Shown: positions 7,142-22,691 of the stretch, one piece after another
Position numbering within the stretch: the first letter of the stretch is position 1
Layout: each line of letters begins with the position of its first letter
From: a virus
Strand: one strand, 5' to 3'
IMG/VR virus record: IMGVR_UViG_3300036407_000016
Coordinates: 1-26,639 of that record
Length of the DNA: 26,639 nucleotides
Notes under the pieces: generated by a model
What the model saw: only the letters and a program-made list of their open reading frames with translations
Database searches by the model: none
Told to the model about the DNA's origin: nothing
Position numbers and translations under genes: made by a program

Positions 7142-7359
7142 TATGCCAGAGCTGGCATGGAGCGAGGGGCAGCAATGCCGGGCGGGTGGAACCGCTCAGG
7201 GATGATCCCGGTGGGCACACGCTGGACCCGCATAGCGGGATCCACCGTCGCGATCTTGAGGTTGACGCGGCTGCCGCTCTTGTCGTCGACCTTGATAAAC
7301 GCCAGATCGCCGATCTGGACGCCTTCGCCTACTTTCACGCTTACAGACAGGATGCCCAT
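7141..7359 (-). CDS. CsrA-like RNA-binding protein in the head operon
   Basis: This 72-residue protein carries a CsrA-like pattern in order: IL near the start, VGEGVQIGD (10-18), FIKVDD, SGSRVNLKI (28-36) and DPAMRVQR (40-47). In CsrA the equivalent blocks are VGE..MIGD, a central G.(Q)VR(I) strand and a terminal V.R, whose Arg44 contacts RNA; here Arg47 matches. The RNA-contacting Arg pair after the first strand is missing and two extra residues occur there. A Pro-rich tail (48-72) is added. CsrA proteins bind GGA motifs in mRNA leaders to control translation. It starts 18 nt after the scaffold stop with only a weak ribosome site. The homology is inferred by eye and should be confirmed by profile search. 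Confidence 0.5.
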   Translation of the reverse strand: MGILSVSVKVGEGVQIGDLAFIKVDDKSGSRVNLKIATVDPAMRVQRVPTGIIPERFHPPGIAAPRSMPALA

Positions 7360-8328: not shown

Positions 8329-10620
8329 TTAAGCGGGTTCAGGCACGCCCGGCGCCGTACCGGGGGCTGCGGGTTGAGGCATTGGGGGCTGTGATGCTCC
8401 CGCCTGTTCTTGTTCGGCCATGGCGGCCTGCTCGGCCTGGTCCTGTTGCTGCAGCTCGGCTTGCGCCTGTGCCACGCCAACTGCCTTGGCCTCTTCCATC
8501 TTGGTGTCGCTGTTGGATTTGAAGCCGGCCTCGGCCATGACCATGTCGGCCGTGTGCGCGACGGCCGGGGCCAGCGTCAGGGCGTCGTTGGCAACAGTCA
8601 TTGCCTTGCCCTGTGCATTGACCTTGCCCTCGATGGTCTGGGCCTCGATGCGCTTGGTTTCGGCTTTCTTCTTGCCGACGTCGGCTTCCTTGACCTGCAG
8701 CTCGAGCTCGAATGCCTTCTGCTGCAGCGCGGCCTGCTCGGCTGCTGCCGTCTGGGCGGCAACCTCTTCCTCGGTCAGTTCCTCGGCGTCGGGGTCGCGC
8801 TGGCCGGTTGCGGCGCGAATGCGCTTCACCAGCTCGTCACGATTGCTGACATCCATTTGCTCGACGACGAGATCCAGGAGCACCATGCCGATCGCAGGCG
8901 GCATCTTGCTGACCAGCTCCATGAGCTCGTCCATCTGCGCCTGGCGCTGGGTAGCCTTCCAGTCGGCGTCAGTGATGACGAAATCGGCCTTGGAGCGTTG
9001 GATGTCGTTCTCGGGCAGCCCGTTGTTGACCTCGATGTACTCAGGGGCACCGCGCATGTTGGTGATGCGGAAAGCCTTGGGTTCGTCGATGAACTGCTCA
9101 ACCAGGCTGAGACGGTTCTCGCCGGAAATTTGCGAGGCAAAGCGCAGGTTATCGAAGAAGTGCATTGTCGCCATGGATCCTTGATCCTGACGACGGCCAA
9201 TCGCGATGCCTGACTTGGCGCCGGTTTCGCGGCCAAGCAGCTCGTCGGTGACGCCGCTGGATTGCTGGATCATGGCGATCGAGCGCGACATCATTTCGAG
9301 CTGGTACTGGCTCAGCTCGCGATCGACATCGATCTTGAGGTCTTTGCCTGGGATCTTGACGATCACCGCGTCCGGCCGCGCAATTTCCTTGCGGAACTCC
9401 TCGATGTCGTCGACGGCGCCCTCGTCCATGATCACTTTGTTGCTGGAAAGGATCCACAGCGCCTTGGACGCGCGCTTATTTATATCTTCTTGCATCCCCT
9501 TGAGGCCACGGATCATGCCGTATGGGAGATTGTCGCGGCCACGGCGCTTGCCCCAGTAGGGGGTGAACGGGAAGCGGTTGTGGCGATAGGGGCTCTCAGA
9601 AAACCACAGCATGCCGATGCTGGTGAAGATGGCGACGTGCATGCGCATCATCATCTTCTTGACCAGCACGGCCTCGCCCGATTCGACGGCTTCGCGATGG
9701 CCGGGCGAGAACTTGTCGTAGATCTCGCGATTGAAGGGGCCGCCCTTCATCTTCTGCACTTCAACCGGGATGCGCACCCAGCCTTCGATAAGGCGCACGC
9801 GCGGCCGGTGATAGCCGAAGCCTACACGGTCGACGATGTGCGCGGAGTGGTCTAGCTCGAGCTCGGCATAGTCGCCGGCGTCGTCGCCGTCATCACCCAT
9901 GGTGTGGATGTCCAGCGCCTGCAGCGCGGAGCGATCAAGCACGCCATGGCGGTCGGGGAAGATCGCTAGAGCTACGTCCTGGTCCACCCACTTGTCGCGG
10001 AACAGATAGCGCGCGTCCGACAGGTCGAGCTCGTTGCTGGTGCTGTCCCACAGGATGCGGCGCCAGCTTTCGTACCTGGTGCGAATGGGCTCGTCTTCGC
10101 CCTCGTCGTCGACATAGTCCTCAGTCCAGCCAATGCCGACCTTCACCTCGTCGGCGAATGCGCGGCTGACGTGGAACGGGGTGCGGTTCACATCGCTGAG
10201 ATACTTGAGCAGCTGGCTCTTGCGCTCGGCCGGCTTGCCGTCCTCTTTGCGGCGCGGCAGGATCTTATGGTCTGAGCGGGAGCGCTTCTCGGTGCCCAGC
10301 ACCCAGTCAACGGATGCTGAAATCACATTGTAAACGAGCGCCTTCTGGCCCCGCTCTTCCACGGTGGCCGCGTCTTTGGCGTCCCACTGGATGTTGTCGT
10401 AGAAGTCCTCGTCCTGCGCCATCTCGGCGCGGTTTTCGTGCTGTCGATCGAGCTCTTTGGCGCGATAGTCCATGAGCCGATGGTGCAGATCGACCATCTT
10501 CTCGCTGTCGAGCTCGCTGCCTTTGACGTGGGCGGCGCCTTCGTCTGATGCCCCGCCCTTGATTGGTGATTTGAACTGCTTTTTTCGTACCGAACCGTCT
10601 TTGGCGTTCAGGTTGAACAT
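8329..10620 (-). CDS. Portal protein, P22-like
   Basis: This 763-residue protein forms the dodecameric portal at one capsid vertex, used for DNA packaging and tail attachment. Features matching P22-like portals include VLGTEKRSRSDHKILPR (about residues 108-125), YESWRRILWDSTSNELDLSDARYLFRDKWV, the FPFTPYWGKRRGRDNLPYGMIRGLKGMQEDINKRASKALW core, and an RETGAKSGIAIGRRQDQG segment. The C-terminal region of about 150 residues is a Gln/Ala/Glu-rich coiled coil ending in a Pro-rich tail, like the long barrel helix of podoviral portals. The length fits the family (about 700-750 residues). The ATG overlaps the preceding gene's TGA by one base, implying coupled translation. Confidence 0.92.
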   Translation of the reverse strand: MFNLNAKDGSVRKKQFKSPIKGGASDEGAAHVKGSELDSEKMVDLHHRLMDYRAKELDRQHENRAEMAQDEDFYDNIQWDAKDAATVEERGQKALVYNVISASVDWVLGTEKRSRSDHKILPRRKEDGKPAERKSQLLKYLSDVNRTPFHVSRAFADEVKVGIGWTEDYVDDEGEDEPIRTRYESWRRILWDSTSNELDLSDARYLFRDKWVDQDVALAIFPDRHGVLDRSALQALDIHTMGDDGDDAGDYAELELDHSAHIVDRVGFGYHRPRVRLIEGWVRIPVEVQKMKGGPFNREIYDKFSPGHREAVESGEAVLVKKMMMRMHVAIFTSIGMLWFSESPYRHNRFPFTPYWGKRRGRDNLPYGMIRGLKGMQEDINKRASKALWILSSNKVIMDEGAVDDIEEFRKEIARPDAVIVKIPGKDLKIDVDRELSQYQLEMMSRSIAMIQQSSGVTDELLGRETGAKSGIAIGRRQDQGSMATMHFFDNLRFASQISGENRLSLVEQFIDEPKAFRITNMRGAPEYIEVNNGLPENDIQRSKADFVITDADWKATQRQAQMDELMELVSKMPPAIGMVLLDLVVEQMDVSNRDELVKRIRAATGQRDPDAEELTEEEVAAQTAAAEQAALQQKAFELELQVKEADVGKKKAETKRIEAQTIEGKVNAQGKAMTVANDALTLAPAVAHTADMVMAEAGFKSNSDTKMEEAKAVGVAQAQAELQQQDQAEQAAMAEQEQAGASQPPMPQPAAPGTAPGVPEPA

Positions 10621-11063
10621 CAGACCATAACCTCACGCACACGCTTGCCGGTGTTGCGGTCGGTGATTGTCACCTCGGCCACTGCCTCTTCGCTGGTCAG
10701 CTCGGGTGGGGTGTAAGGCGGGATCCGGAACAGGTGCTCGATATGATCTTCTATCAGCTCGATTATCTGCTGCGGCGCGTGCCGGTCGGATTCCAGGCGA
10801 AGCGACTGCGCAAACGAGCGGCCCATGGTGACGGCCTGCCACGCCAGATGCGGATATTGCTCGTGCGCCGACTTGGCGAACACGAATGCATGGTTGAGCG
10901 TCACCACGCAGGGCACGGTGTGTTCGCTGAACTCTTCGCCCCGGCGGATGATCGCAAGACATGGGACAACGCCCTCGTCCGTGGCGACCCACGTGCCGAT
11001 AAGCGTTACGGGACCAATCTCGCGGGAGAAGTGGCGTTGGGAGAGATCGAGTGCGGCAGTCAT
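10620..11063 (-). CDS. Uncharacterised protein upstream of portal
   Basis: From the ATG at 11063 this is a 147-residue protein beginning MTAALDLSQRHFSREIG. The longer frame to 11201 would read through a palindrome-rich intergenic region and yields an unlikely Arg/Phe-rich leader, so I prefer 11063, which has GGGG 7 nt upstream. The sequence is globular (TLIGTWVATDEGVVPCLAIIRRGEEF, then FVFAKSAHEQYPHLAWQAVTMG) with a helical ELIEDHIEHLFRIPPYTPPEL segment. No known family is recognised. Its stop overlaps the portal ATG, so it may assist head assembly, but that is inferred from position alone. Confidence 0.75.
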   Translation of the reverse strand: MTAALDLSQRHFSREIGPVTLIGTWVATDEGVVPCLAIIRRGEEFSEHTVPCVVTLNHAFVFAKSAHEQYPHLAWQAVTMGRSFAQSLRLESDRHAPQQIIELIEDHIEHLFRIPPYTPPELTSEEAVAEVTITDRNTGKRVREVMV

Positions 11064-11070
11064 TGCACGG

Positions 11071-11085
11071 CCCCGGATTAAGGGG
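11071..11085 (-). promoter_or_regulatory. Small GC hairpin covering a ribosome site
   Basis: CCCC (11071-11074) and GGGG (11082-11085) can pair around a 7-nt loop. In minus-strand mRNA the GGGG that would serve as Shine-Dalgarno for the 10620-11063 gene is in the 3' arm. The stem is only 4 bp. Confidence 0.25.
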
Positions 11086-11134
11086 TGGTGCGGCGCTGCA
11101 GAATTACGAAAAAACCGGGGTTTTGTCCATCGGA

Positions 11135-11153
11135 TTAACCGGAAGTCGGTTAA
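11135..11153. repeat. Perfect inverted repeat in intergenic region
   Basis: TTAACCG (11135-11141) and CGGTTAA (11147-11153) form a 7-bp dyad around GAAGT. It lies in the 196-bp gap (11064-11259) before the portal block. Just downstream in minus-strand sense is a short AAAAC/GTTTT dyad with a T-run, a poor terminator. The dyad may be a protein-binding site or RNA hairpin. TTAACC also equals the half-site recognised by CtrA-family regulators. I saw no good promoter in the gap. Confidence 0.5.
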
Positions 11154-11259
11154 ACGCCAAAAATGGTCGTTTGGTTGCAGCGAATCTGGGGGGAGATCCA
11201 ATGGCTAGCATCGGCTGGGTGAACAGAAGGTGAATGCAGAATGGGTATGATGCCCGTTC

Positions 11260-11571
11260 TCAGATCCCCATCGCGCGATCGATGGCGGCTTTTTTGCAGG
11301 CTGCCCATGCTGCGCGGAACATGCGTTCTAGCCGTGCCCCTTCCAGGCGCTTCGGAGAGCCGGCGGGAAACTGCCAGAAGCCACCATCACCACACAGTCG
11401 GCGGTGCCGAGTGCGCAGCAGGGCCACGCGTCGGCGCTTATGGGCTGGTGCCAGCTTCCAATGTGCGCCGCAGATGATCTCCGTAGATCCTTCGGGCTTG
11501 AACGTCCGCTGGCAACCGGGAATCGCACATGGCAAGCGGCCGGCTGCGATCTTCTCGGCATAACTAGCCAT
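11260..11571 (-). CDS. Small putative zinc-binding protein
   Basis: This 103-residue basic protein carries CAIPGCQ (Cys15, Cys20) followed by IICGAHW (Cys34, His37), a likely CCCH zinc knuckle, then an Arg-rich helix KRRRVALLRTRHRR. Small proteins with this Cys/His pattern recur in alphaproteobacterial prophages. Their function is unknown, with nucleic-acid binding plausible. Its ATG overlaps the preceding stop by 8 nt. It is the last gene of the tightly overlapping cluster before the 196-bp gap. Confidence 0.75.
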   Translation of the reverse strand: MASYAEKIAAGRLPCAIPGCQRTFKPEGSTEIICGAHWKLAPAHKRRRVALLRTRHRRLCGDGGFWQFPAGSPKRLEGARLERMFRAAWAACKKAAIDRAMGI

Positions 11572-11896
11572 CTATGCCCCGCTCGACAATCTGAGCGCAC
11601 TTCCGTAGCCGATCATACTCGGCGGCATCCACCTGCACCGTGCGCAGGGGCATGAAGGGGATCGGTCCGCGATCGTAGCAGGGGATTAGGATACGTGGCC
11701 GCAGCGCTTCGCGCGCCTCCCGCAGCACTTGGTCCCGCTTGTAGAGCTCGGCGCCGGCCAGATCGAACAGCCGAACCGGGTTCTCCATGAGCTCGGCGTT
11801 CTGCGCGTCGAATAAGCCCAGCAGCCTGGCGAAAGCGTGGCACGCCTCGCGCCTGGTCTTGCCAAAGTCCACCGAAACCACCTTCTCGTCGTTCAT
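11564..11896 (-). CDS. Uncharacterised small phage protein
   Basis: This 110-residue protein begins MNDEKVVSVDFGKTRREA, with a helical ARLLGLFDAQNAELMENPVRLFDLAGAELYKRDQVLREAREAL core and a C-terminal DAAEYDRLRKCAQIVERGIDG. No motif identifies a function. The start overlaps the preceding gene's stop by 4 nt and its stop overlaps the next gene by 8 nt, which supports it as real and translationally coupled. Confidence 0.75.
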   Translation of the reverse strand: MNDEKVVSVDFGKTRREACHAFARLLGLFDAQNAELMENPVRLFDLAGAELYKRDQVLREAREALRPRILIPCYDRGPIPFMPLRTVQVDAAEYDRLRKCAQIVERGIDG

Positions 11897-12201
11897 TTTG
11901 GCAGGCTCCCGATATTGACGGGTTGCGGGAGCGTGAACATGGCGTGCTCCATCAGTGCCCGCGTTAGCTGGTCCCGCTCCCGCGCCAAGGGGTCAATCTC
12001 CCGCGCCATCACTCGGTAGATGCGGTCGATCTCCATGTCGCGGATCTCGCGCCAGCCATGAGCACGGGCGCGTGTGGCCTCGATTTTCTCTCGCTGCTTA
12101 ACAAAACGCTCCTGCGCTGCAGCAATTGCCCGGTTGATCTCGGCAAGGCGGTCGCGTGACCATGCTTCGGCCTGCTCGTTGGTCATTGCCGCAAGCGTCA
12201 C
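11893..12201 (-). CDS. Helical, charged small phage protein
   Basis: This 102-residue protein uses a GTG start whose bases overlap the preceding TGA as GTGA; an ATG five codons later is the alternative. It is almost wholly helical and highly charged (RDRLAEINRAIAAAQERFVKQREKIEATRARAHGWREIRDMEIDRIYR), so a coiled coil is likely. Its role is unknown. The 4-nt overlaps on both sides tie it to the operon. Confidence 0.7.
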   Translation of the reverse strand: MTLAAMTNEQAEAWSRDRLAEINRAIAAAQERFVKQREKIEATRARAHGWREIRDMEIDRIYRVMAREIDPLARERDQLTRALMEHAMFTLPQPVNIGSLPK

Positions 12202-12437
12202 GCTTCCATCCCCTTTTTCCAGCCTTCCACCGCCCGTCGCGCATGCCGGTCGATCAGATCCGGCGCACGTTCGATCCAGGGGTATGGATGCCGGCTGGTG
12301 CTCGCTTCGCGATCACCGCAAACCTTGAGCAGTCGCAGGCCATTGAAACGCAGCCCATGCGACGACATGTATCTGCCGCAGCGCGGGCACACATCGACAT
12401 AGATCGCGAGCAGCATGCCGGCGCGATCAGCGTCCAT
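12198..12437 (-). CDS. Small protein with zinc-ribbon half motif
   Basis: From the ATG at 12437 this is a 79-residue protein with CPRCGRYM near residue 17 and one later Cys (LKVCGD). A longer frame to 12467 exists, but the chosen ATG has a strong GAGGGGAG 7-8 nt upstream and overlaps the upstream gene's end by 11 nt. The C-terminal helix PDLIDRHARRAVEGWKKGMEA is basic. Probably a small zinc-binding phage protein of unknown function. Confidence 0.65.
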   Translation of the reverse strand: MDADRAGMLLAIYVDVCPRCGRYMSSHGLRFNGLRLLKVCGDREASTSRHPYPWIERAPDLIDRHARRAVEGWKKGMEA

Positions 12438-12621
12438 CAGCACGCTCCCCTCGGTGTCGGTGCGCACCGCAATAGTGCTGCCCCGCGAGCTTGGCGTCCT
12501 TGCGATCTATGGCCTTACCCAGATGGCCGTTGAAACCAAAAGGTGCGAACGCCTTGCAGCCTGGCTCATCGCAATAGGCGACGGGCTTAGTGTTCGGGCC
12601 TGACTTCGCCCACTGGATCAT
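12427..12621 (-). CDS. Small Cys/His-rich phage protein
   Basis: From the ATG at 12621 this is a 64-residue protein, MIQWAKSGPNTKPVAYCDEPGC onward, with CDEPGC and a later YCGAHRHR that together make a CCCH zinc site. The longer upstream extension is Arg/Thr/Pro-rich and lies over the 48-residue gene in another frame, so it is rejected. AGGTGAGG lies about 5 nt before the ATG. Function unknown; it resembles small phage proteins with a single zinc finger. Confidence 0.65.
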   Translation of the reverse strand: MIQWAKSGPNTKPVAYCDEPGCKAFAPFGFNGHLGKAIDRKDAKLAGQHYCGAHRHRGERADGR

Positions 12622-12764
12622 CGGCGCCTCACCTTCTTCAGTTTGTCCGCCCGCGCCAGCCGCCCGCGGTCCGCCAGCTCTTTGCGAAACCAGTAGTGCT
12701 CTTTCGCGCGGTCCCAAGCCTCTAGTTGGGCCAGTGAACAGCCCGTGGGTCTTGGCTCCCCCAT
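12618..12764 (-). CDS. 48-residue basic protein
   Basis: A short frame starts at the ATG at 12764, overlapping the preceding TGA as TGATG, and ends in a TGA overlapping the next ATG as ATGA. The product begins MGEPRPTGCSLAQLEAWDRA and ends in a Lys/Arg-rich tail. The central AKEHYWFRKELADRGRL segment is an amphipathic helix. Overlap on both sides and protein-like composition support it. No function is assigned. Confidence 0.6.
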   Translation of the reverse strand: MGEPRPTGCSLAQLEAWDRAKEHYWFRKELADRGRLARADKLKKVRRR

Positions 12765-12976
12765 CACGCCACCTTCTGGTTGTCGTTGCAGGCGCTCGCC
12801 TCGTTGATGTCGGCGAGGTAGCCCTCACACAGATCCACCAGCAGCTGGGCCTCGGCCTTGCGCCGATCGGCGATGCCGGCGTGGATGATCGACGCGAGGA
12901 ACATGGCGCCGTTGAACATGAAGAAGATCAGCATCAGCCAGTTCGGCGCCGTCGTGGTCGCTGTAAGCCAGCTCAT
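12764..12976 (-). CDS. Small single-pass membrane protein
   Basis: This 70-residue protein has one hydrophobic segment (about residues 13-33, WLMLIFFMFNGAMFLASIIH) followed by a charged cytoplasmic-type helix RRKAEAQLLVDLCEGYLADI. No signal peptide cleavage site is apparent. It could be an anchor, a lysis accessory protein or a superinfection-exclusion protein. Nothing in the sequence decides. The start overlaps the preceding stop by 4 nt. Confidence 0.7.
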   Translation of the reverse strand: MSWLTATTTAPNWLMLIFFMFNGAMFLASIIHAGIADRRKAEAQLLVDLCEGYLADINEASACNDNQKVA

Positions 12977-13188
12977 GGCACATCCTCATAGTCGGCGAGC
13001 GCCGCCTGCAACGCGTAGATCAGGTCGCGGAGATCTTCGGCACCGCTAACGCCTAACTGCTGCGGGCCGCAGTTGCGTTCACGGGTGATGCTGAACCCTG
13101 GCGGGTAGCCGTCGTAGAAACCCTCGACCGTGACATCATTGATCCGCTTCTTGAAGGAGCCCCGCATCTTGTGCTTGCGCTGGCTCAC
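12973..13188 (-). CDS. Uncharacterised small phage protein
   Basis: With a GTG start at 13188 overlapping the upstream TGA as GTGA, this is a 71-residue protein (SQRKHKMRGSFKKRINDVTVEGFYDGYPPGFSITRERN onward). The longer frame to 13239 adds an Arg-rich leader lying over the upstream gene and is less likely. GAGG lies about 9 nt before the GTG. The first half is basic and strand-rich and the end is an acidic helix. Function unknown. Confidence 0.6.
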   Translation of the reverse strand: MSQRKHKMRGSFKKRINDVTVEGFYDGYPPGFSITRERNCGPQQLGVSGAEDLRDLIYALQAALADYEDVP

Positions 13189-13487
13189 CCTTCCACCTCG
13201 TCGAGCACAAAGCCGTCGCTGGCGTCGGGGCCACCCCACAGATTGACGCGCTCGCCACGCATGTAGGCATTGCGGTCGCGGGTCATCGATTGGCGGCGCT
13301 TATCGGACGGCCGCTTGCCGTTCTCATCGTTGGGGAAGTGCCGGCCGTGGATTGCCGCGAAGTGGCGAACAGCATGGAAGTTTGCGCGCGATGCCATGGC
13401 GACTTGCCTAGCCGTCATACCGCACTCAATGCCGCCGTCGATTTGCGCGAGCTTCTGCTCGGTCGTTGCCTTGTCCCACCAGCTCAA
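13185..13487 (-). CDS. HTH protein at head of small-gene cluster (weak GcrA-like pattern)
   Basis: I place the start at a TTG (13487-13485) because AGGAGG lies exactly 6 nt upstream, giving a 100-residue protein MSWWDKATTEQKLAQIDGG. Residues 8-45 form an HTH-like unit: a helix, then CGMTARQVAMASRANFHAVRHFAAIHG. The MSWxD start, G(M/L)(T/S)A.Q(V/I)A turn and NxxAV..H..G end loosely resemble GcrA-family DNA-binding proteins, but the match is weak. The rest is polar and ends in VLDEVEG. It follows an intergenic region with two repressor-operator copies, so it would be the first gene of that transcript. Confidence 0.55.
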   Translation of the reverse strand: MSWWDKATTEQKLAQIDGGIECGMTARQVAMASRANFHAVRHFAAIHGRHFPNDENGKRPSDKRRQSMTRDRNAYMRGERVNLWGGPDASDGFVLDEVEG

Positions 13488-13538
13488 TTCATCCCTCCTA
13501 GCCTCGGAACGCAGCTGCAGGCGGGGCCATTGGGCCAG

Positions 13539-13551
13539 CAAGACAATCTTG
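13539..13551. promoter_or_regulatory. Phage operator copy (11/13 match)
   Basis: CAAGACAATCTTG has 5-bp arms and matches the switch-region palindrome at 11 of 13 positions. It lies 66 bp (center to center) from a second copy at 13605, within the leader of the 13185-13487 gene. Confidence 0.5.
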
Positions 13552-13604
13552 CGCACTGATTTGCGTGAGGCGCCTGAACTCTGTGGCCATCCACAACCAA
13601 ACGT

Positions 13605-13617
13605 CAAGAATTTCTTG
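13605..13617. promoter_or_regulatory. Phage operator copy (exact) beside TATAAA
   Basis: CAAGAATTTCTTG is the exact reverse complement of the operator at 18162-18174. It lies just downstream, in minus-strand sense, of TATAAA (13625-13620), whose bases also form the terminase stop codon. The -35 candidate ATCACG (13648-13643) is poor. Bound repressor would cover the start point of a promoter feeding the small-gene/portal block. Confidence 0.6.
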
Positions 13618-13620
13618 TTT

Positions 13621-15207
13621 TTATACCGCCATCGAGCTTGGCCGTGATGCGGGTTTCTTGCCGGATTGCTGCTTGGGTCCACGGATCAGCCCTGCCGCTT
13701 TGGCCTGGGCATGCTGGCGCAGAGCATCGGCCGCGTGCTGGTGCCCATTCTTGGCCACCTGTGACGTGAACGTGCCATTGCGCTCGCTCCATACCTTGGC
13801 ATAGCCATCGACGTGCTTCAGGCCGTCGGCCGTGTTGGTTAGGTCGAACATGTAGCTGGAGAAGGCGTCACGCAGCTGCTGGATGCCGTCGAGCAGGTTG
13901 TTGATGCGTGGCAGGATGTGGATGCGCTTGAACCCGACTTCCTCGAGCATGTCCGCCGAGGTCTTGAGCACCTCTGTGCCTGGGCGCCGGTGCGCGCCGT
14001 CGTGGGGCAGGAAGCACTCGCCCAGCACGTAGGGTTTCTTGTCGATCTCGCGCTTGAAGTAGCCGTATGCCTCGCCCGACGCTTCCATGTAGTCGATGAA
14101 GCGATCGTAGGCACCAATCTGCTGGTGGAACCAGATCGCGATGTCGTCGTCGACGCCTAGATCCCAGAACAGGTTGACCGGGTAGGCCGGATCGTACGGC
14201 ACATCGGTGATGCGCCGGTCCTTGCGGGCCTGCGCCATCTGGGTGCTGAACCACTTGCCCTCGGTGGAAGGGGTGAAAGCTTCCTCAAGCGTCGATGGGT
14301 ACTGCATCGCCATCTGCTCGCGGTCGCCACTGAACTCGTTCTGGCGTTTCTGCACATACCAGGCGCGCTGCGGGAGCTCGATCGGGCGGCCGATCGTCGC
14401 CTCGAGGCGGTTGAAGTAGTCGTGGTCGGCGCGGGTGATGGTCACGCTTAGAGGGTCGGTCTGGTATTCCTGCGCGTCCCACCAGCTGGCGAAGTGCAGG
14501 CGGTAATCCATCTGGCTCAGTGGCCGTCCGCTGTCTGCCTGCTTGCGGGCCTGCTCAACCTTCGCGGTGAAGTCGCCGTCCAGCCCTTCCACGGTACTCT
14601 CAATGACGACGATGCCGCCCTTGTCGACGGCCGGGATGGAGCCGCCCTGGATCTCGCGGGCCTTCTTGGGCGAGGTCGCGCAGATCTTGCCGTATTCCGA
14701 GATATGCAGGAACTGGATCGTGCCACTGCGTACCGATATTGCGCACCTTATGGTGGACTGGTTGCTGAACACGATCCTGGACTGCGTTTCGCGAACCACC
14801 GGGTTCATCGCCTTCACGATGTCGGGCAAGCGATCGTAGGCAAACTTGATCTTGTCCGTGAAGATGTCTTCACACTTATCCCGCGTCTCTGCGATCACGG
14901 CGCAGCGCTGATAGGGGGTGAACAGCGCCCGATCGAGCAGCATCAACTGTACCACTGTCGAGAAGCCGCGTTGACGGGCCTTTGGCACCACGTTGCGGAA
15001 CCAAAGTTCGTCGATGAACTTGGCCTGCACTTCGTTAGGCGTGAACAGGACCGGGTCGCCGTCCTTGTCCATGATCCAGTAGAGGTTGCGGATCCGCCAC
15101 CTCGGATCTTTGAGGTTGGTGAAGAACTGCAGCTCGGGCTCGGTGGGTGGGCGGCCGAGGATGCCGCGCAACTGGTCCGCAAAGCTGATTTGAGCGGGCG
15201 CGTTCAT
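13621..15207 (-). CDS. terL: Terminase large subunit
   Basis: This 528-residue packaging ATPase and nuclease shows a Walker A-type loop KARQRGFST (76-84), and a Walker B-like IQFLHISEYG with Glu171 about 90 residues later. A coupling-type VVIESTVEG follows. The C-terminal nuclease region has FWDLGVDDDIAIW and HQHAADALR supplying acidic metal ligands. The order and length are those of the RNase H-like terminase family used by P22-type and other podoviruses. The tail is Lys/Pro/Ser-rich. Its start overlaps the small subunit stop by 4 nt, and its stop lies in a TATAA next to an operator. Confidence 0.92.
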   Translation of the reverse strand: MNAPAQISFADQLRGILGRPPTEPELQFFTNLKDPRWRIRNLYWIMDKDGDPVLFTPNEVQAKFIDELWFRNVVPKARQRGFSTVVQLMLLDRALFTPYQRCAVIAETRDKCEDIFTDKIKFAYDRLPDIVKAMNPVVRETQSRIVFSNQSTIRCAISVRSGTIQFLHISEYGKICATSPKKAREIQGGSIPAVDKGGIVVIESTVEGLDGDFTAKVEQARKQADSGRPLSQMDYRLHFASWWDAQEYQTDPLSVTITRADHDYFNRLEATIGRPIELPQRAWYVQKRQNEFSGDREQMAMQYPSTLEEAFTPSTEGKWFSTQMAQARKDRRITDVPYDPAYPVNLFWDLGVDDDIAIWFHQQIGAYDRFIDYMEASGEAYGYFKREIDKKPYVLGECFLPHDGAHRRPGTEVLKTSADMLEEVGFKRIHILPRINNLLDGIQQLRDAFSSYMFDLTNTADGLKHVDGYAKVWSERNGTFTSQVAKNGHQHAADALRQHAQAKAAGLIRGPKQQSGKKPASRPSSMAV

Positions 15208-16019
15208 TGGTCCGCGCCCTCTTCCTCATCGTCCTCGTCCTCGTCGTCATCGGTGAGGTCGGGATTGGTGCCGGGCGTGGGCGCCAACGGGGTCAGGAGT
15301 GGCGCATTGGCAACGGGCGGGGCATTAACAGGCAAGAGCGGCGTGCCTGCCAGCGCACCTAGCAGCTGGGTCAACGTGCCGCCCGCTTCGACCTCGGAGC
15401 GCTCCTTGAAGGCGTTCACTTCGACATGCTTGCCGACGAGCTCGAGGCGCTTGAGCCGATCGCTGAGTTTGAGCTTTTTCACACGTCCGATGTGGACCCG
15501 GTCCTCGCCGGCGCCCTCGAATAGCTCTTCGGTCTCAACACCGGCCACCAGGCCAGTGCGCCATGCCAGCGGCCACTCATGAATGGGCAACAAATTGCCC
15601 ATTTCGTCGTACAGATCCGCTAGATCCGCATCGAGCTCGTCACCCAGCCGGTCCAGCACCATATCGGCGTTCCAGCGGACCCGTTTGATGCGCTCTCGCT
15701 TGAGCTGGCGGATGCGCAACTGGATGTAGGGTTTCGTCAGTAGCTCGTAGCCGGTCTGGCGCGCGTTCTTCTCGCTGTAGCCCGCTCGGCGCGCGGCTTC
15801 TGCGGCGTTCAGCACCTCGACATAGTGCTCGCAGAACATCGCCTCTTTCTCGGTGAGCACCTTGTGGATGGTGTCACCGCTCTTGGCGCGGTTCTCGTCA
15901 GGCGCGATCGGCTCAATGCCCGCAACCACGGCTGGCTTGGCTTTGGCGCGTGGCTTGCGCTTGGCCGGGGCTTTCGCCTTAGCTGCGGGTTTGGTGGTGC
16001 CCTTGGGGGAGGTGGGCAT
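15204..16019 (-). CDS. terS: Terminase small subunit
   Basis: This 271-residue protein has a basic Lys/Ala/Pro-rich N-terminus (1-35). The Terminase_2-type core follows: LTEKEAMFCEHYVEVLNAAEAARRAGYSEKNARQTGYELL, whose HTH would recognise the packaging site on phage DNA, then YIQLRIRQLKRERIKR. The second half includes DRLGDELDADLADLYDEMG and LSDRLKRLELVGKHVEVNAF, as expected for ring-forming subunits. It ends in an Asp/Glu-rich tail. A good AGGAG precedes the ATG by 7 nt but lies in a hairpin. Confidence 0.88.
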   Translation of the reverse strand: MPTSPKGTTKPAAKAKAPAKRKPRAKAKPAVVAGIEPIAPDENRAKSGDTIHKVLTEKEAMFCEHYVEVLNAAEAARRAGYSEKNARQTGYELLTKPYIQLRIRQLKRERIKRVRWNADMVLDRLGDELDADLADLYDEMGNLLPIHEWPLAWRTGLVAGVETEELFEGAGEDRVHIGRVKKLKLSDRLKRLELVGKHVEVNAFKERSEVEAGGTLTQLLGALAGTPLLPVNAPPVANAPLLTPLAPTPGTNPDLTDDDEDEDDEEEGADQ

Positions 16020-16025
16020 GGCTGT

Positions 16026-16042
16026 GCTCCTGGGATAGGAGC
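16026..16042 (-). promoter_or_regulatory. Hairpin sequestering the terS ribosome site
   Basis: GCTCCT (16026-16031) pairs with AGGAGC (16037-16042) around GGGAT. In the minus-strand mRNA the AGGAG nearest the ATG at 16019 forms one arm, so it is hidden from the ribosome unless the 6-bp stem opens. This may set a low level of small subunit. Confidence 0.5.
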
Positions 16043-16065
16043 GCGTCCATGCGCTGTTAGCCTAG

Positions 16066-16114
16066 ATCATAGCATTTGCGGGGTTTCTATGCACGTGGCT
16101 CTGCATGTGCATAG
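16066..16114 (-). promoter_or_regulatory. Candidate promoter/dyad upstream of terS
   Basis: A perfect 8-bp inverted repeat, CTATGCAC (16087-16094) with GTGCATAG (16107-16114), lies in the 107-bp gap before terminase. Downstream in minus-strand sense is TATGAT (16071-16066), a good -10 with no strong -35. The dyad may be an activator or packaging-protein site, or a hairpin in the readthrough transcript. Confidence 0.3.
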
Positions 16115-16126
16115 TTTTCGACGTGG

Positions 16127-16429
16127 CTAGTGGGTGACGGGTGTTCGGTCCTGCACGATCACCTCGCCAAACGGCAGATTGAGCAGGGTCAGTGCTCTTG
16201 ATGATTGGCGCAGCTGGGTCGCGCGATTTTCGCAGAACTGTGCGCGCTGTTCGGCGATAGCCGCTTGTCGACAAAGCTCCGCAGCATCTTCCTCGGCCTT
16301 CTTGCGAAGTGCTACAGCGTCATCCTCGGCCTTCTTCCGCAGCATCTGGGCATGCTCCCGATGCGCTGAGGCGGCTTGCGTATCGTTGATTGCGGCCTGT
16401 TCGAGTTCGATAATGGCAGGTTCATGCAT
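16127..16429 (-). CDS. Coiled-coil phage protein
   Basis: From the ATG at 16429 this is a 100-residue protein with GGAGAA 6 nt upstream and an 8-nt overlap with the preceding gene. Residues 10-75 form one continuous coiled coil with an internal duplication, RKKAEDDAVAL followed by RKKAEEDAAEL. The C-terminal 25 residues (RALTLLNLPFGEVIVQDRTPVTH) look strand-like. It has no recognised family. It lies between replication-type and packaging genes. Confidence 0.7.
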   Translation of the reverse strand: MHEPAIIELEQAAINDTQAASAHREHAQMLRKKAEDDAVALRKKAEEDAAELCRQAAIAEQRAQFCENRATQLRQSSRALTLLNLPFGEVIVQDRTPVTH

Positions 16430-16790
16430 CGTGGGTTCTCCAGTCGGTTGCGAGCATATCCGCATGCGTAGGGCGCCATAGACGCTGGCCAGTGCGCGTG
16501 ATCATCATCAGCCCTTCCGGGCCGCAGATCACATGGCCGCTGCGCCAGGTGACGCGCGCGACCTTTTTGCCGTTCTTCGCAAGGAAAAGGGCGTGTTCGA
16601 AGCCCAGCCTGCCGCTTTGCTGATAATCGGCCTCAAACACGTGCTGGGGCAACCATGTTGCCATCTTGCCGTCGACGCAGACAACGTAACCCGGTTTATC
16701 CGGATTGCGGGTCTGCATGTCTACCGGGCCGGGCGCCTCGAAAGCGCGCGCCGACAGGAAACCGACGTATTCTTGGATGCGATCGTTCAT
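16422..16790 (-). CDS. DUF2829/Tad2-like protein, candidate anti-Thoeris
   Basis: From the ATG at 16790, which overlaps the preceding TGA as ATGA, this is a 122-residue protein. Residues 34-56 (GYVVCVDGKMATWLPQHVFEADY) match a module often seen in phage proteins before other small domains. Residues 63-118 resemble DUF2829: GFEHALFLAKNGKKVARVTW, a short strand region, then WRPTHADMLATDW. DUF2829 includes Tad2, which blocks Thoeris immunity by sequestering its cyclic ADP-ribose-type signal. The middle loop is shorter than in typical Tad2, so the ligand pocket may differ. The family link is good and the anti-defence function is inferred. Confidence 0.6.
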   Translation of the reverse strand: MNDRIQEYVGFLSARAFEAPGPVDMQTRNPDKPGYVVCVDGKMATWLPQHVFEADYQQSGRLGFEHALFLAKNGKKVARVTWRSGHVICGPEGLMMITRTGQRLWRPTHADMLATDWRTHDA

Positions 16791-17437
16791 GCGGTGAGCA
16801 ACTGCCTCGCCTGCTGAACTTGGGAAGTAGGGAACACCCAACCACCGTCCTTGTTCGTCATGGTCTTGCGATGATGGCTGACATCGCAGACTGCATTCCA
16901 AAGACCTTCATCAAGCAAGGCATGAACGAACGTTGTCGGGGATACTACATCTTGGGCTGGGTCCAATTCCCCAGTTTGGGGTAAGGGGTTATTGGATTGG
17001 TTTGGAATGGTAGGCGGAATCTGGTGCCGGTCCTTCCGTCGTGAGATTCCGGTGCTTGTTTCACGAGGACCGGCACCACGTTCCGCACCTTTTTCTATAT
17101 GTAGTGGGTCTGCCTTTTCGATCAGAGCTGGTTCGTCAGCTGCTGCTTTGTCGCCTGGCCACAGTGCCTTGTACTCATGGTTCTTCCACCGCTGCCCCTT
17201 GAAACCATGCTCGTTACGGTGGAGCCATCCCAAGGTTTCGGCGATCTCAAGGTGCTTGCGCACCGCACGCTCGCTCAAGCCCGTTGCCACTGCCAGTTGC
17301 TCTTGTGTCGGATAGCAACCACCTCCGACGGCGTTCATGTACAGAGCAAGGGTGAGCAACACGTGCCGGGTAGTAGGCTCTAGGTCAGACTTGATGATGG
17401 CGTGCTGCCATGTCCAGGTGCGCTTATCGTCGCTCAT
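16787..17437 (-). CDS. HTH replication-type protein
   Basis: This 216-residue protein has an N-terminal HTH_36-like winged helix: TRHVLLTLALYMNAVGGGCYPTQEQLAVATGLSERAVRKHLEIAETLGWLHR (about 22-74), then KGQRWKNHEYKALWP. This fold opens many phage replication initiators and lambda O-like proteins. A disordered linker (95-155) leads to a C-terminal helical segment TTFVHALLDEGLWNAVCD, with VFPTSQVQQARQLL at the end. No helicase or primase motif is present. Its place in the early leftward operon behind the Cro-like gene fits an origin-binding replication protein. No iterons were found within the gene by eye. Confidence 0.65.
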   Translation of the reverse strand: MSDDKRTWTWQHAIIKSDLEPTTRHVLLTLALYMNAVGGGCYPTQEQLAVATGLSERAVRKHLEIAETLGWLHRNEHGFKGQRWKNHEYKALWPGDKAAADEPALIEKADPLHIEKGAERGAGPRETSTGISRRKDRHQIPPTIPNQSNNPLPQTGELDPAQDVVSPTTFVHALLDEGLWNAVCDVSHHRKTMTNKDGGWVFPTSQVQQARQLLTA

Positions 17438-17853
17438 GAGGCAACGCCCATACTGACGCGCCGGCGTTGTTGGCGTCTGCTGTAGCGCTGCTCGTTGCGG
17501 CGCGCTTCGGCGTCCGTGAAGATGTTGGTGTGGCCCTTGCCCTGGTAGGGCTCAATGGTTGTCACAACGCGCGGGCTGTCGCCGAAGCGAACGACGTAGC
17601 CATTGCCTATGACACTCGGGCTGCCGCCATGCTGGAGCGCAATCCGAACGGCCTTGGACAAGATGCGCTCGCGAACCGCGTTGACGGTGAGGCCAGCTAA
17701 AGCGGTATGGGCCAGCGCAACAGCAAACGTGCGGCCGGTGTCATCCTCCATGCCGGGAACGATTACCTTGAGCACGCGTTGGCAATAACGGGTTACTGCG
17801 TGGTAGCTCACCATGTTCAGCGTGATCTCGCTAAGCGGATCGGGGAGCGACAT
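17434..17853 (-). CDS. Uncharacterised early phage protein
   Basis: This 139-residue protein has AGGG 7 nt before its ATG. It begins MSLPDPLSEITLNMVSYHAVTRYCQRVLKV. The HAVTRYCQRV helix is typical of a small group of alphaproteobacterial phage proteins of unknown function. The middle has VRFGDSPRVVTTIEPY, and the end is strongly basic (RRNEQRYSRRQQRRR), suggesting nucleic-acid contact. It lies 9 nt downstream of the Cro-like gene and overlaps the HTH gene by 4 nt. Confidence 0.7.
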   Translation of the reverse strand: MSLPDPLSEITLNMVSYHAVTRYCQRVLKVIVPGMEDDTGRTFAVALAHTALAGLTVNAVRERILSKAVRIALQHGGSPSVIGNGYVVRFGDSPRVVTTIEPYQGKGHTNIFTDAEARRNEQRYSRRQQRRRVSMGVAS

Positions 17854-17862
17854 GGCAATGCC

Positions 17863-18126
17863 CTACCCCGCAGCTGCTTCGAGGGCTTCGGAAGCGCTCT
17901 TGATTCCCCAGATCTCAGGCGGCGCCGTACAGCCCATCGCTTCAAGGGCGGTGGTCATAATCACATAGTAGTGGGAGGCTATGCGATGGCTGTACCGCCA
18001 GTTTGTCACGGTCTGCAGGGACTTTGCCTTGGTGAGATCTTGGACGGCCACATTCCCCCCCAACGCGTCGATAACGGCGTCAACGGTCGTCAGCTCGCGA
18101 ATTTGGCAATTGTCTTGGGTGCTCAT
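17863..18126 (-). CDS. Cro-like transcriptional regulator
   Basis: This 87-residue protein starts at the ATG at 18126 with GGATGG close upstream. Residues 14-63 read as a Cro/YdaS-type HTH: TVDAVIDALGGNVAVQDLTKAKSLQTVTNWRYSHRI, then YYVIMTTALEAMG and TAPPEIWG. Proteins with this ALGG..AV..LT....Q.V.NWR pattern are the small regulators facing phage repressors in alphaproteobacteria. It is divergent from the XRE repressor and heads the leftward operon. Its promoter (-35 TTGCGA, -10 TATGGT) has an operator in the spacer. It probably shuts down repressor synthesis during lytic growth. Confidence 0.75.
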   Translation of the reverse strand: MSTQDNCQIRELTTVDAVIDALGGNVAVQDLTKAKSLQTVTNWRYSHRIASHYYVIMTTALEAMGCTAPPEIWGIKSASEALEAAAG

Positions 18127-18153
18127 GGTGCCATCCATGTGGACTATGCTCGC

Positions 18154-18182
18154 ACCATAATCAAGAAATTCTTGTTTCGCAA
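18154..18182 (-). promoter_or_regulatory. Leftward early promoter
   Basis: TTGCGA (18182-18177) and TATGGT (18159-18154) are 17 nt apart. The palindrome 18162-18174 fills the spacer, so bound repressor would exclude RNA polymerase. The start point falls about 20 nt before the Cro-like ATG. The same design recurs at 18817-18845. Confidence 0.6.
18162..18174. promoter_or_regulatory. Operator 1 of the switch region
   Basis: CAAGAAATTCTTG has 6-bp perfect arms around a single central A. It is the reference copy for the six-site set and lies between the -35 and -10 of the leftward promoter. Confidence 0.65.
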
Positions 18183-18187
18183 TTGAC
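18178..18187. repeat. CGCAATTGAC element, copy 1
   Basis: This 10-bp element recurs exactly at 18841-18850. It holds TTGAC on the plus strand and TTGCG on the minus strand, so it provides overlapping -35 boxes for two opposite promoters. Confidence 0.65.
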
Positions 18188-18229
18188 AAGGAAGGCTTGT
18201 TGGTGCTGATAACCGCTGGACAATATATT
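18183..18229 (+). promoter_or_regulatory. Repressor promoter region
   Basis: TTGACA (18183-18188) is a perfect -35, with GATAAC (18208-18213) 19 nt later. A second option is TATATT (18224-18229), which would start transcription at or next to the repressor ATG at 18237 and give a leaderless message, as for lambda cI. No Shine-Dalgarno is visible before that ATG. Confidence 0.45.
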
Positions 18230-18233
18230 CTTG
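18221..18233. promoter_or_regulatory. Operator 2 of the switch region
   Basis: CAATATATTCTTG matches the palindrome at 11 of 13 positions and overlaps the TATATT box just before the repressor start. It is 59 bp from operator 1. Binding would give negative autoregulation. Confidence 0.5.
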
Positions 18234-18236
18234 TTC

Positions 18237-18554
18237 ATGGCGAGAGACGTGACCCGAGATCTTCCAGACACTTCCAATCGCGCGATCGGCGAGAGGCTTG
18301 CGAGCATCCGCCAGGCGCGTGGGTGGTCGCAGGCTTACGCAGCCCAGTTGATCGGGGTCAGCCCACAGCGCTGGGGTAACTGGGAACGCGGCTTGAACGC
18401 TCCACCGCCTGACCTTCTGGGCAAGCTCTGGCAGCTCACCGGCGCAACGTCGGACTATCTGTTGTTTGGCCGCCTGGACGGCATGCCATTCGAACTGGCC
18501 CAGGCTGTTAGCCGGCCCAGCGTGACTGCGAAAAGCGGCACAACTGGGCGCTAA
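18237..18554 (+). CDS. XRE-family phage repressor, short form
   Basis: From the ATG at 18237 this is a 105-residue protein; a TTG two codons upstream is possible but is part of operator 2. Residues 17-78 are a typical XRE HTH: IGERLASIRQARGWSQAYAAQLIGVSPQRWGNWERG, then PPPDLLGKLWQLTGATSDYLLFG. Only about 25 residues follow. There is no LexA-like peptidase or other dimerisation domain, so RecA-driven self-cleavage is not expected. It faces the Cro-like gene across operators 1 and 2 and is the best candidate for the lysogeny repressor. Some such short proteins are accessory regulators instead. Confidence 0.75.
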   Translation: MARDVTRDLPDTSNRAIGERLASIRQARGWSQAYAAQLIGVSPQRWGNWERGLNAPPPDLLGKLWQLTGATSDYLLFGRLDGMPFELAQAVSRPSVTAKSGTTGR

Positions 18555-18568
18555 CGTCGCCTAAAACA

Positions 18569-18590
18569 AACCCGGCCTAAGCGCCGGGTT
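18569..18590. terminator. Bidirectional terminator between convergent genes
   Basis: AACCCGGC (18569-18576) pairs perfectly with GCCGGGTT (18583-18590) around a 6-nt loop. In minus-strand sense it is followed by TTTGTTTTAG, and in plus-strand sense by CTTCCTTCTC. The TAG stop of the 18577-18774 gene lies in the loop. It would end both the repressor transcript and the opposing one. Confidence 0.75.
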
Positions 18591-18774
18591 CTTCCTTCTC
18601 AACTACGCGCAGGGAGTGCATGCGAGCTTTTCGCCGAGGCTCTGCCATTTCTGCCACGTATTTCTTGGCATACTCCAGCACCTGGATCGCTTCCTCCGGG
18701 TCCTCAGGCAGGCTCGGGATGATGCCGTGCGCCTGACGTTGTATCCAAAGATCCTTATCCCAATCCGCAGCCAT
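18577..18774 (-). CDS. Small acidic protein in the switch region
   Basis: From the ATG at 18774 this is a 65-residue protein with a perfect GGAGG 5 nt upstream; the longer frame to 18813 would start inside the proposed promoter leader. It begins MAADWDKDLWIQRQAHGI and continues with a helix EEAIQVLEYAKKYVAEMAEPRRKAR. No family is recognised. It has its own operator-controlled promoter, which places it under the same repressor as the two arms. It could be an early regulator or host-takeover peptide. Confidence 0.65.
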   Translation of the reverse strand: MAADWDKDLWIQRQAHGIIPSLPEDPEEAIQVLEYAKKYVAEMAEPRRKARMHSLRVVEKEEPGA

Positions 18775-18816
18775 AAATTCCTCCGAGCCCCACCGCTCTG
18801 GTTTAACACGCAATCC

Positions 18817-18845
18817 ACAGTAACAAGATATTCTTTAGTCCGCAA
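18817..18845 (-). promoter_or_regulatory. Promoter of the 18577-18774 gene
   Basis: TTGCGG (18845-18840) and TACTGT (18822-18817) are 17 nt apart, with an operator copy in the spacer. Spacing and operator offset nearly copy the leftward promoter at 18154-18182. Confidence 0.5.
18824..18836. promoter_or_regulatory. Operator 3 of the switch region
   Basis: CAAGATATTCTTT matches the palindrome at 11 of 13 positions. It is 31 bp, about three helical turns, from operator 4, which favours cooperative binding on one DNA face. Confidence 0.55.
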
Positions 18846-18850
18846 TTGAC
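18841..18850. repeat. CGCAATTGAC element, copy 2
   Basis: Exact copy of 18178-18187, again holding overlapping -35 boxes on both strands and placed between two operators. Confidence 0.65.
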
Positions 18851-18872
18851 GAAACAAGAATTTCTTTATACG
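18846..18872 (+). promoter_or_regulatory. Rightward early promoter
   Basis: TTGACG (18846-18851) and TATACG (18867-18872) flank operator 4. The 15-nt spacing is shorter than ideal, so the exact -10 is uncertain. It is the only promoter-like sequence ahead of the plus-strand operon that begins at 18932. Confidence 0.45.
18855..18867. promoter_or_regulatory. Operator 4 of the switch region
   Basis: CAAGAATTTCTTT matches the reverse form of the palindrome at 12 of 13 positions and sits within the rightward promoter. Confidence 0.6.
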
Positions 18873-20736: not shown

Positions 20737-21036
20737 ATGACCATCGAGCCTATCGCCCCCACCGCCGCCCACGCTGCACTGGCATTGGAAGAGGCCCAGC
20801 GTCTCACGGGCGATAACCCCGCCCGTTACCGCATGGTCGCCATGGGCGCCATGATGCGCGCCTTTCCTCACGTCCAGGCAATGCAGCTGGGGGAAGTGCT
20901 CTCGATCGCGAACGCCAAGCGGGCGAATGCTGCTGTCCGCAAATGCCGTGAAAGCTCCAACTGGTGGAACGAGGCGCGGGTCGAAGAAGTCACCGGCGCA
21001 TTGGTGGCTGAACGCTATGGGGAGCGTGCCCAGTGA
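20737..21036 (+). CDS. Uncharacterised phage protein
   Basis: This 99-residue protein has AGAGG 8 nt before its ATG and ends overlapping the methyltransferase start (GTGA). It is mostly helical (HAALALEEAQRLTGDNPARYRMVAMGAMMRAFPH) with a Trp-Trp pair in SSNWWNEARVEEV. No family is recognised. Coupling suggests coordinate expression with the methyltransferase. Confidence 0.65.
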   Translation: MTIEPIAPTAAHAALALEEAQRLTGDNPARYRMVAMGAMMRAFPHVQAMQLGEVLSIANAKRANAAVRKCRESSNWWNEARVEEVTGALVAERYGERAQ

Positions 21037-22691
21037 GCAATCCTCTGACAATCCTCAACGGCCGGGCCACGATCCACATCGGCAATGTCATGGATCGGCT
21101 GCGTGACCTGCCCGACGACTTCTTCGACACCTGTGTGACTTCGCCGCCCTACTGGGGCTTGCGCGATTATGGGACCGCTGCGTGGGTTGGTGGAGACAGC
21201 ACTTGTCATCACCAACCTGTCGCCACCATGCGCATGCCTTGGGCTAACGGCATGAAGTCACCCACCAGCGTCGGCAAGCACGGCTGGCATGGGGCGCGGC
21301 CACCGAAAGAACGGCACGGCTATTGCGCACTCTGTGGCGCCCAGCGCGTGGATTATCAAATCGGTCTGGAGTCCACGCTCGGCGAGCACCTTGAAGTCAT
21401 GGTGGAAGTATTCGCCGAGATTTGGCGCGTGATGAAGCCGACTGGGACCGTGTTTCTCAACTATGGCGATTGCTATGCCACCGCGCCGAACGGCCGTAGC
21501 GCCGCCGACACCAAGGTAGAGGGCAACGATGATCGCACGTTCCGCGACAAGCCTTTCTCCACAGTCGGGCCGATCTACGATCCCAATTGGGCAACACCCC
21601 GCGGCGTGTTCGAAGGATCTCAGTTCGGCCATAACGGCGCCGGCACCAGGCGCATTGATCATGGCGGGCGCGTAGTCGCCGGAGGCATGCTCAAGCCGAA
21701 AGATCTCTGCATGATCCCCAATCGGCTCGCCATTGCGCTGCAGGATTGGGGCTGGTGGGTACGTTCCGAGATTATCTGGGGCAAGAAGAACCCTATGCCC
21801 GACAGCAGCGGCAACGGCCGTCCGTCCACTGCGCACGAAAAGATATTCCTGCTGACCAAATCCGGAGAGTCGGATGTCTGGCGGGCACGCGACACCGGGG
21901 CACTGTCATTCAATCCGGACCTAAACGAACGCGTTCCGATGGCAACGGCGATCGACAAGGACACTGGGCTGCCAAAGATAGGGCCGCGGTGGATCAAACT
22001 TGGAAGCTATTACGACGCGAGCGCTGTCATGCAGCCTTCGAGCGAAAACACACATTCCCGGATCTCCCAGAACGTCGAGGCGCAAATCGGTAGTGAGCGA
22101 GCGCACGCCGGCGGCAAAACTAACGGCAACATGAAAGCTGTGGCGAGCAAGATTGCGCCGGCCCATGCAGCGGGCCACCGCGCCAATTCCCATTTCGTGG
22201 AAGCACTCAAAACAGCTGATCGGCGATCAATCAGGGGCGGGAACCCGAAGCATGTAGATCCCCGGCATGCCAAGCACATCAACCATACCGGCCTCGACAG
22301 TCTGGATCGAGGCCGAGGCCGTCTGCTGCGCAATTTCGAAGAGGCGCCCTTAACGGTATGGCCTATCGCTACTGTGGCATTCAAGGACGCCCACTTTGCC
22401 ACTTTCCCCCCAGAACTCGTCGCCCTAGCCATTGCTGCCGGCGCTCCACCAAACGGTGGCATGGTGCTCGATCCATTCGGAGGATCTGGCACCACTGCCC
22501 TTGTGGCGCTTCGTATGGGTCGAAAGGCGCACCTGATCGAACTCAAGCCTGAGTACGCCGCCATGGCGCGAAACCGCCTCGAGCGCGACTGGATGGGTGA
22601 GGAAGAGCGCAGACGTGTGAGTGCAAAAGACAAGGGCACTCCACCGCCAGGCCCCTTGTTTGAAGTAGTGCCCGCGGAGGCAGCAGAATGA
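21033..22691 (+). CDS. DNA methyltransferase, beta-type (N6-adenine/N4-cytosine)
   Basis: This 552-residue protein uses a GTG start in a 4-nt overlap. Motif IV, TSPPYWGL, is at residues 36-43, and the SAM-binding motif I, VLDPFGGSGTT, at about 478-488, the order of the beta group (PF01555). Between them is a very long middle region with possible zinc ligands CHH (58-60) and CALC (98-101), then EIWRVMKPTGTVFLNYGD and WGWWVRSEIIWGKKNPMPDS. It transfers methyl groups to an exocyclic amine in DNA. Target sequence cannot be read from the protein. No restriction partner is adjacent, so an orphan enzyme protecting phage DNA or altering regulation is likely. Confidence 0.88.
   Translation: MSNPLTILNGRATIHIGNVMDRLRDLPDDFFDTCVTSPPYWGLRDYGTAAWVGGDSTCHHQPVATMRMPWANGMKSPTSVGKHGWHGARPPKERHGYCALCGAQRVDYQIGLESTLGEHLEVMVEVFAEIWRVMKPTGTVFLNYGDCYATAPNGRSAADTKVEGNDDRTFRDKPFSTVGPIYDPNWATPRGVFEGSQFGHNGAGTRRIDHGGRVVAGGMLKPKDLCMIPNRLAIALQDWGWWVRSEIIWGKKNPMPDSSGNGRPSTAHEKIFLLTKSGESDVWRARDTGALSFNPDLNERVPMATAIDKDTGLPKIGPRWIKLGSYYDASAVMQPSSENTHSRISQNVEAQIGSERAHAGGKTNGNMKAVASKIAPAHAAGHRANSHFVEALKTADRRSIRGGNPKHVDPRHAKHINHTGLDSLDRGRGRLLRNFEEAPLTVWPIATVAFKDAHFATFPPELVALAIAAGAPPNGGMVLDPFGGSGTTALVALRMGRKAHLIELKPEYAAMARNRLERDWMGEEERRRVSAKDKGTPPPGPLFEVVPAEAAE

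Follow-up and report, generated by a model that had tools for sequence, protein, structure and literature searches.

Outlying copies of a putative repressor operator

Does the repressor of a temperate phage control genes located far from its own switch? The window we have analyzed, a 26.6-kb IMG/VR record (26,639 nt at full length), raises this question. It contains several copies of a 13-bp motif, CAAGA-NNN-TCTTG; the sequence CAAGANNNTCTTG is palindromic. Most of the copies lie in what appears to be a lysogeny switch, two are found about 4.5 kb away from it.

The original prediction listed six sites, at 13539, 13605, 18162, 18221, 18824 and 18855. All of them are recovered by a motif scan of the window and are real. 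Nevertheless, the list was incomplete: An operator at 18187 had been overlooked. The copies at 13605 (minus strand) and 18162 have no mismatches to the 13-bp motif, the copy at 18855 has one, and those at 13539, 18221 and 18824 have two. Both half-sites are perfect at 13539, 13605 and 18162; the copy at 13539 is included here because the motif is read as CAAGA-NNN-TCTTG. An exact 13-bp match had been considered improbable by chance, and the numbers agree: A Markov model of the window predicts 0.004 exact copies, while two are seen. When up to two mismatches are allowed, seven copies are seen and 0.34 are expected under the same model. A match of this kind at 18655 has been rejected as an operator, it lies in coding sequence and reaches only 9.3 bits.

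These scores come from a matrix trained only on the switch operators of two relatives, L007 and L018, which are described below. With this matrix, the sites at 13605 and 18162 tie for the first place in the window (23.1 bits), and the site at 13539 scores 18.0 bits. A generic search for repeated palindromes places CAAGANNNTCTTG second within the window. The same search in other relatives sharing terL gives mostly codon-driven, GC-rich motifs and is uninformative.

Other, weaker matrix matches are found at 6988, 25404, 26084 and 21839, all of them inside ORFs. We considered whether they might be operators dispersed along the genome. They look like an excess when compared with the Markov model and with unrelated phages, but they are borderline against synonymous-codon shuffles: Four ORF matches of at least 14 bits are seen, while 100 shuffles give a mean of 1.1 and a maximum of three. 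Since they are in ORFs and borderline by this last comparison, we have not counted them.

Some of these places have features of their own. The site at 6988–7000 (minus strand, AAAGACAATCTTG, 17.7 bits) shares 12 of 13 bases with the site at 13539; it is flanked by a CsrA-like ORF and an ORF for a small membrane protein, and may fall in a short ORF (6965–7141). The CsrA-like ORF (7141–7359, minus strand) codes for a small protein among structural genes, with a weak match to phrog_8397 (E 6.5e-5) and a Pfam CsrA match below the cut-off. At 25404–25436 there is a leftward promoter-like match (TTGCCA-17-TAAAGT) which ranks fourth in the window. It overlaps an operator-like site (AAAGACTTTATTG) in a small ORF which resembles an excisionase and precedes the integrase. 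The match at 26084–26096 (18.7 bits) is inside the integrase ORF and may be due to the amino acid sequence.

The switch region and its relatives

The switch contains the following features:

17863–18138, minus strand, cro-like gene, the first in the leftward operon
18162–18174, plus strand, operator 1 (CAAGAAATTCTTG), in the spacer of the leftward cro promoter TTGCGA-17-TATGGT
18187–18199, plus strand, operator 2 (CAAGGAAGGCTTG), three mismatches, overlapping the -35 box TTGACA of the repressor promoter
18221–18233, plus strand, operator 3 (CAATATATTCTTG), just 5' of the repressor ATG at 18237
18237–18554, plus strand, repressor gene, a 106-aa XRE-type HTH protein (HTH_31 1.4e-11, HTH_3 3.4e-9)
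18824–18836, plus strand, operator 4, in the spacer of the leftward promoter TTGCGG-17-TACTGT of gene 18577–18813
18855–18867, plus strand, operator 5, in the spacer of the rightward early promoter TTGACG-17-TACGGT

Of the five operators, three are found in the interval that separates the cro-like gene from the repressor gene, and the other two belong to a second pair of divergent promoters. Four switch sites had been proposed, three of them in promoter spacers. The spacer positions (18162, 18824 and 18855) are correct, the count has to be raised to five with the operator at 18187. The repressor has no C-terminal peptidase domain. The cro-like protein has no Pfam match, and its AlphaFold model resembles the Cro protein of Xfaso 1 (3bd1; Foldseek probability 1.00, E 0.09). 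A divergent HTH repressor and a Cro-like protein, identified as such by this fold match, with three shared operators between their genes, are what is found in switches of the lambda and N15 type. Judging from this arrangement, the five copies would form an N15-like switch.

The same switch is present in three other phages: L007 (an IMG/VR contig), L018 (identical to L040, a prophage of Devosia crocina) and a prophage in genome G086, which belongs to the same bacterial family as D. crocina, in the Alphaproteobacteria. All three have relatives of the repressor, the divergent repressor and cro genes with three shared operators between them, and five operators at places matching those of the window: one in the cro promoter spacer, one at the repressor -35 box, one just 5' of where the repressor gene starts and, about 0.6 kb further on, one in each spacer of a divergent promoter pair. 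The equivalents of the first three operators are:

Operator 1: L007 8159; L018 7500; G086 L063:19780
Operator 2: L007 8184 (CAAGGAAACCTTG); L018 7475; G086 L063:19755
Operator 3: L007 8218; L018 7441; G086 L063:19721

The two remaining operators of the G086 prophage are at L063:19043 and 19073. In this prophage the operators read (A/C)AAC(A/G)-NNN-(T/C)GTT(G/T) instead of CAAGA-NNN-TCTTG, and the half-site AACA or AACG replaces AAGA in all five. Both its repressor and its Cro are altered in their putative recognition helices. Since half-sites and recognition helices both differ, the proteins of the switch seem to have changed along with the motif. A shift at all five operators is what one would expect of a motif read by the switch proteins, and the G086 prophage may be regarded as a natural specificity switch.

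A matrix scan of L007, L018 and G086 does not detect any outlying operator of at least 14 bits. A single G086-type match of 13.96 bits is found far downstream, perhaps beyond the prophage boundary. The early-promoter pattern is absent from the viral collection except for L007 and L018. Genome G102 has a relative of the repressor (37% identity), and there we find no comparable sites, nor terL or portal nearby.

The window and L007 also have in common a DNA methyltransferase-like gene (21033–22691 in the window). Its protein is 84% identical between both phages, while their TerL proteins are 50% identical. Such a difference suggests that this gene has been exchanged.

The leader and the inserted cassette

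The two outlying operators are found in the following region, which is read leftward:

13621–15207, minus strand, terL (phrog_2, terminase large subunit, 8.4e-23)
13488–13620, minus strand, non-coding leader of 133 nt, containing both outlying operators
13605–13617, minus strand, outlying operator A (CAAGAAATTCTTG), 3 nt past the terL stop, overlapping a TTGACG -35-like hexamer
13578–13607, minus strand, weak candidate promoter TTGACG-N18-CAGAGT, the best promoter-like match of the leader
13539–13551, minus strand, outlying operator B (CAAGA-TTG-TCTTG), both half-sites perfect, 51 nt ahead of the TTG start
13185–13487, minus strand, first cassette gene (TTG start, AGGAGG), 100 aa, phrog_25952, with HTH-like helices at the N-terminus
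11260–13487, minus strand, insertion separating terL from the 147-aa gene, a cassette with about nine small accessory genes
10620–11063, minus strand, conserved 147-aa gene (phrog_10057), just after terL in about 25 relatives
8329–10620, minus strand, P22-like portal gene (PF16510, E 9.4e-181)

The leader extends from the terL stop (13621) to the TTG start at 13487, which is preceded by an AGGAGG ribosome site. Both operators are thus in non-coding sequence. When the leader is shuffled, the best site is never equaled (0 of 200,000 shuffles), nor do two sites as good as the second one appear (0 of 200,000). Operator A shares a 17-bp match with the cro operator of L007, and both operators are of the type found in the switch of this phage, not of the changed type of G086. 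These results support the outlying sites being the same operator as in the switch.

Such a leader is specific to the window. The gap next to terL ranges from -4 to 14 nt in L007, L018 and G086, no second phage with the leader was detected among the contigs with paired perfect sites, and the leader and first cassette gene have no DNA match in phage records. We also considered an RNA element, which has been discarded: The leader has an ordinary fold (z -0.29) and no Rfam match.

In about 25 relatives the 147-aa gene is found 3' of terL, usually directly, and the portal gene comes next in those we have inspected. In the window terL and the 147-aa gene are separated by nine small genes, which occupy about 2.5 kb. 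The comparison shows that the cassette is an insertion, as its neighbors are adjacent in relatives. The original prediction placed the outlying sites in a late-gene leader between terL and a block of small genes and portal. Their location is right, but the leader heads the inserted cassette, which L007, L018 and G086 lack, and not the morphogenesis genes proper. Other, smaller inserts are found at the same spot in L018, G086, L043, L045 and L050. Both the size and the content of the insert vary among L018, L064, L043, L045, L050 and the window, so this interval may be considered a site for accessory genes.

Most of the cassette genes are orphans in the phage records we have searched. One has no relatives in the viral collection, and a single weak relative of a cassette gene is located elsewhere in an Ochrobactrum phage. 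The first gene is better represented. Its TTG start agrees with its relatives, whose starts are also close to the conserved SWW/AWW stretch they share. In several rhizobial phages the phrog_25952 gene is part of the early operon, near a gene which, from its translation, we take to be GapR-like. The presence of this gene in early operons would favor a cassette under repressor control. The first 50 residues of the protein give a confident model of an HTH-like helical bundle, with no significant fold match.

Morons are small accessory genes found between conserved late genes, and they usually have a promoter of their own, from which the lysogen expresses them. The cassette resembles them in its position between conserved late genes, at a spot which is variable in relatives. 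Contrary to what is usual for morons, we predict that the prophage repressor silences it, and no convincing terminator is found after 11260. A non-coding stretch of about 196 nt (11064–11259) separates the cassette from the 147-aa gene; it contains the palindrome TAACCGACTTCCGGTTA and no clear terminator.

A promoter in the leader is plausible. The candidate -35 hexamer TTGACG (13607–13602) overlaps operator A by three bases, and the same hexamer is the -35 box of the early promoter in all four phages. With a start near 13571, operator B would correspond approximately to +20 to +32 of the transcript. On the other hand, operator A is outside the promoter spacer, unlike the operators of the switch promoters. 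The candidate ranks 51st in the window according to a matrix from twelve switch promoters, and a plain consensus scan finds nothing in the leader.

Explanations for the outlying operators

The outlying sites are the same operators as in the switch, and the genes just past their non-coding leader are read in the same direction. We therefore prefer an explanation in which the repressor (or Cro) controls these genes directly. We consider it somewhat more probable than its negation that the motif is the operator of the lysogeny repressor of this phage, and that the repressor acts on an internal promoter in the leader, by which a moron-like accessory cassette is under its direct control. The repressor on operator A would cover the -35 box of the leftward promoter. 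It would also be bound to operator B, about 66 bp downstream, and the switch would probably keep the cassette silent in the lysogen. After induction or lytic infection the cassette would be transcribed early, independently of the long leftward operon. Its transcript may continue into the 147-aa gene and the portal gene, since no convincing terminator follows the cassette. The original prediction proposed that the repressor or Cro controls a second morphogenesis promoter: The same operator is indeed found ahead of co-oriented genes, but morphogenesis genes would be reached only by such read-through. The analysis shows the sites and their statistical excess. It also shows that they match the operators conserved in the switch, that the leader is non-coding and that the cassette has been inserted. 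From this we infer operator binding, the ligand (repressor or Cro), the promoter and the timing.

Because the candidate promoter is weak by both scans, our preference for an internal promoter is a cautious one, and a roadblock without any promoter deserves attention, even if we consider it rather unlikely. By analogy with the stoperators of mycobacteriophage L5, the repressor on two operators would halt polymerase reading leftward from terL, and leaky transcription would be kept from the cassette and head genes in the lysogen. The sites are a pair, they are found directly past the terL stop within a long co-directional unit, and stoperators also occupy short intergenic gaps outside the switch (PMC9283540). 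However, L5 stoperators are asymmetric and oriented, with 20–30 per genome (PMC6550527, PMC9283540), whereas the sites described here are palindromes and only two outlying ones are convincing in the 26.6-kb window. The TTGACG hexamer abutting operator A also argues against a promoterless leader. Another explanation, unlikely in our opinion, is that the leader is a relic or a passenger. It would have arrived with the cassette, or by recombination from a promoter of the switch region, and its operators would have little present function. The 17 bp common to operator A and the cro operator of L007 fit this origin, as do the weak promoter and the presence of the leader in one phage only. Nevertheless, two perfect half-sites have been kept at both sites amid unconserved sequence, and they correspond to the operator type of this phage and not to that of G086.

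It seems very improbable that the outlying sites are bound mainly by Cro instead of the repressor, with the cassette being turned down late in lytic growth. The upstream lytic gene is predicted to encode a Cro-like fold, and the choice of sites can differ between Cro and repressor in switches of this kind, as in phiKO2. But in that phage all five operators are bound by the repressor and a single one by Cro (PMC4997575), and in our case the sequence does not separate both ligands. Finally, chance matches hardly need to be invoked. The motif is short, and in unrelated phages isolated matches of at least 16 bits appear about 0.2 times per 26 kb. Here, however, a single non-coding leader of 133 nt contains two, including an exact copy, a situation never equaled by shuffling.

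Direct control of the cassette by the repressor would admit an extension, which we regard as quite doubtful: A regulator in the cassette, the HTH-like phrog_25952 protein or a neighbor, might act back on the switch or on late genes, for example as an antirepressor of the short repressor. If this were true, the feedback regulator and the outlying operators would close a positive-feedback loop, leading to switch-like induction.

Comparison with known systems

The closest model is the CB-Cro switch of N15 and phiKO2. Three of its five operators are located between repressor and cro, and a second promoter region contains the other two. Its repressor lacks recognizable self-cleavage residues and also directs a second promoter, that of repA, and its Cro is all-helical (PMC4997575). 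The switch of the window resembles it in these respects, with the same 3 + 2 arrangement. It differs in that operators 4 and 5 are on a second divergent promoter pair and not at repA, in the size of the repressor (only 106 aa), and in the two further operators before an accessory cassette. The Gifsy phages have short non-cleavable repressors and antirepressor loci, and in Fels-1 a small gene outside the immunity region, fsoA, is under the phage's own repressor (PMC3121763). The window has a similarly short repressor, with genes outside the immunity region predicted to be under its control. In contrast to these phages, its cassette has no identified antirepressor, the first product is HTH-like, and the site is between terL and portal.

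In summary, outlying repressor sites are a known theme (N15 OL, Fels-1 fsoA, L5 stoperators), which would be found here in a new group of viruses. The finding is solid as sequence, its function is a prediction. If the prediction is true, two operators tie an inserted cassette to the prophage's own switch, which keeps it silent in the lysogen. In any case, a compact five-operator switch is found in four related phages and prophages, two of them in genomes of the D. crocina family. One of the four has a changed operator specificity, which makes them a tractable set for the study of repressor-operator co-evolution.
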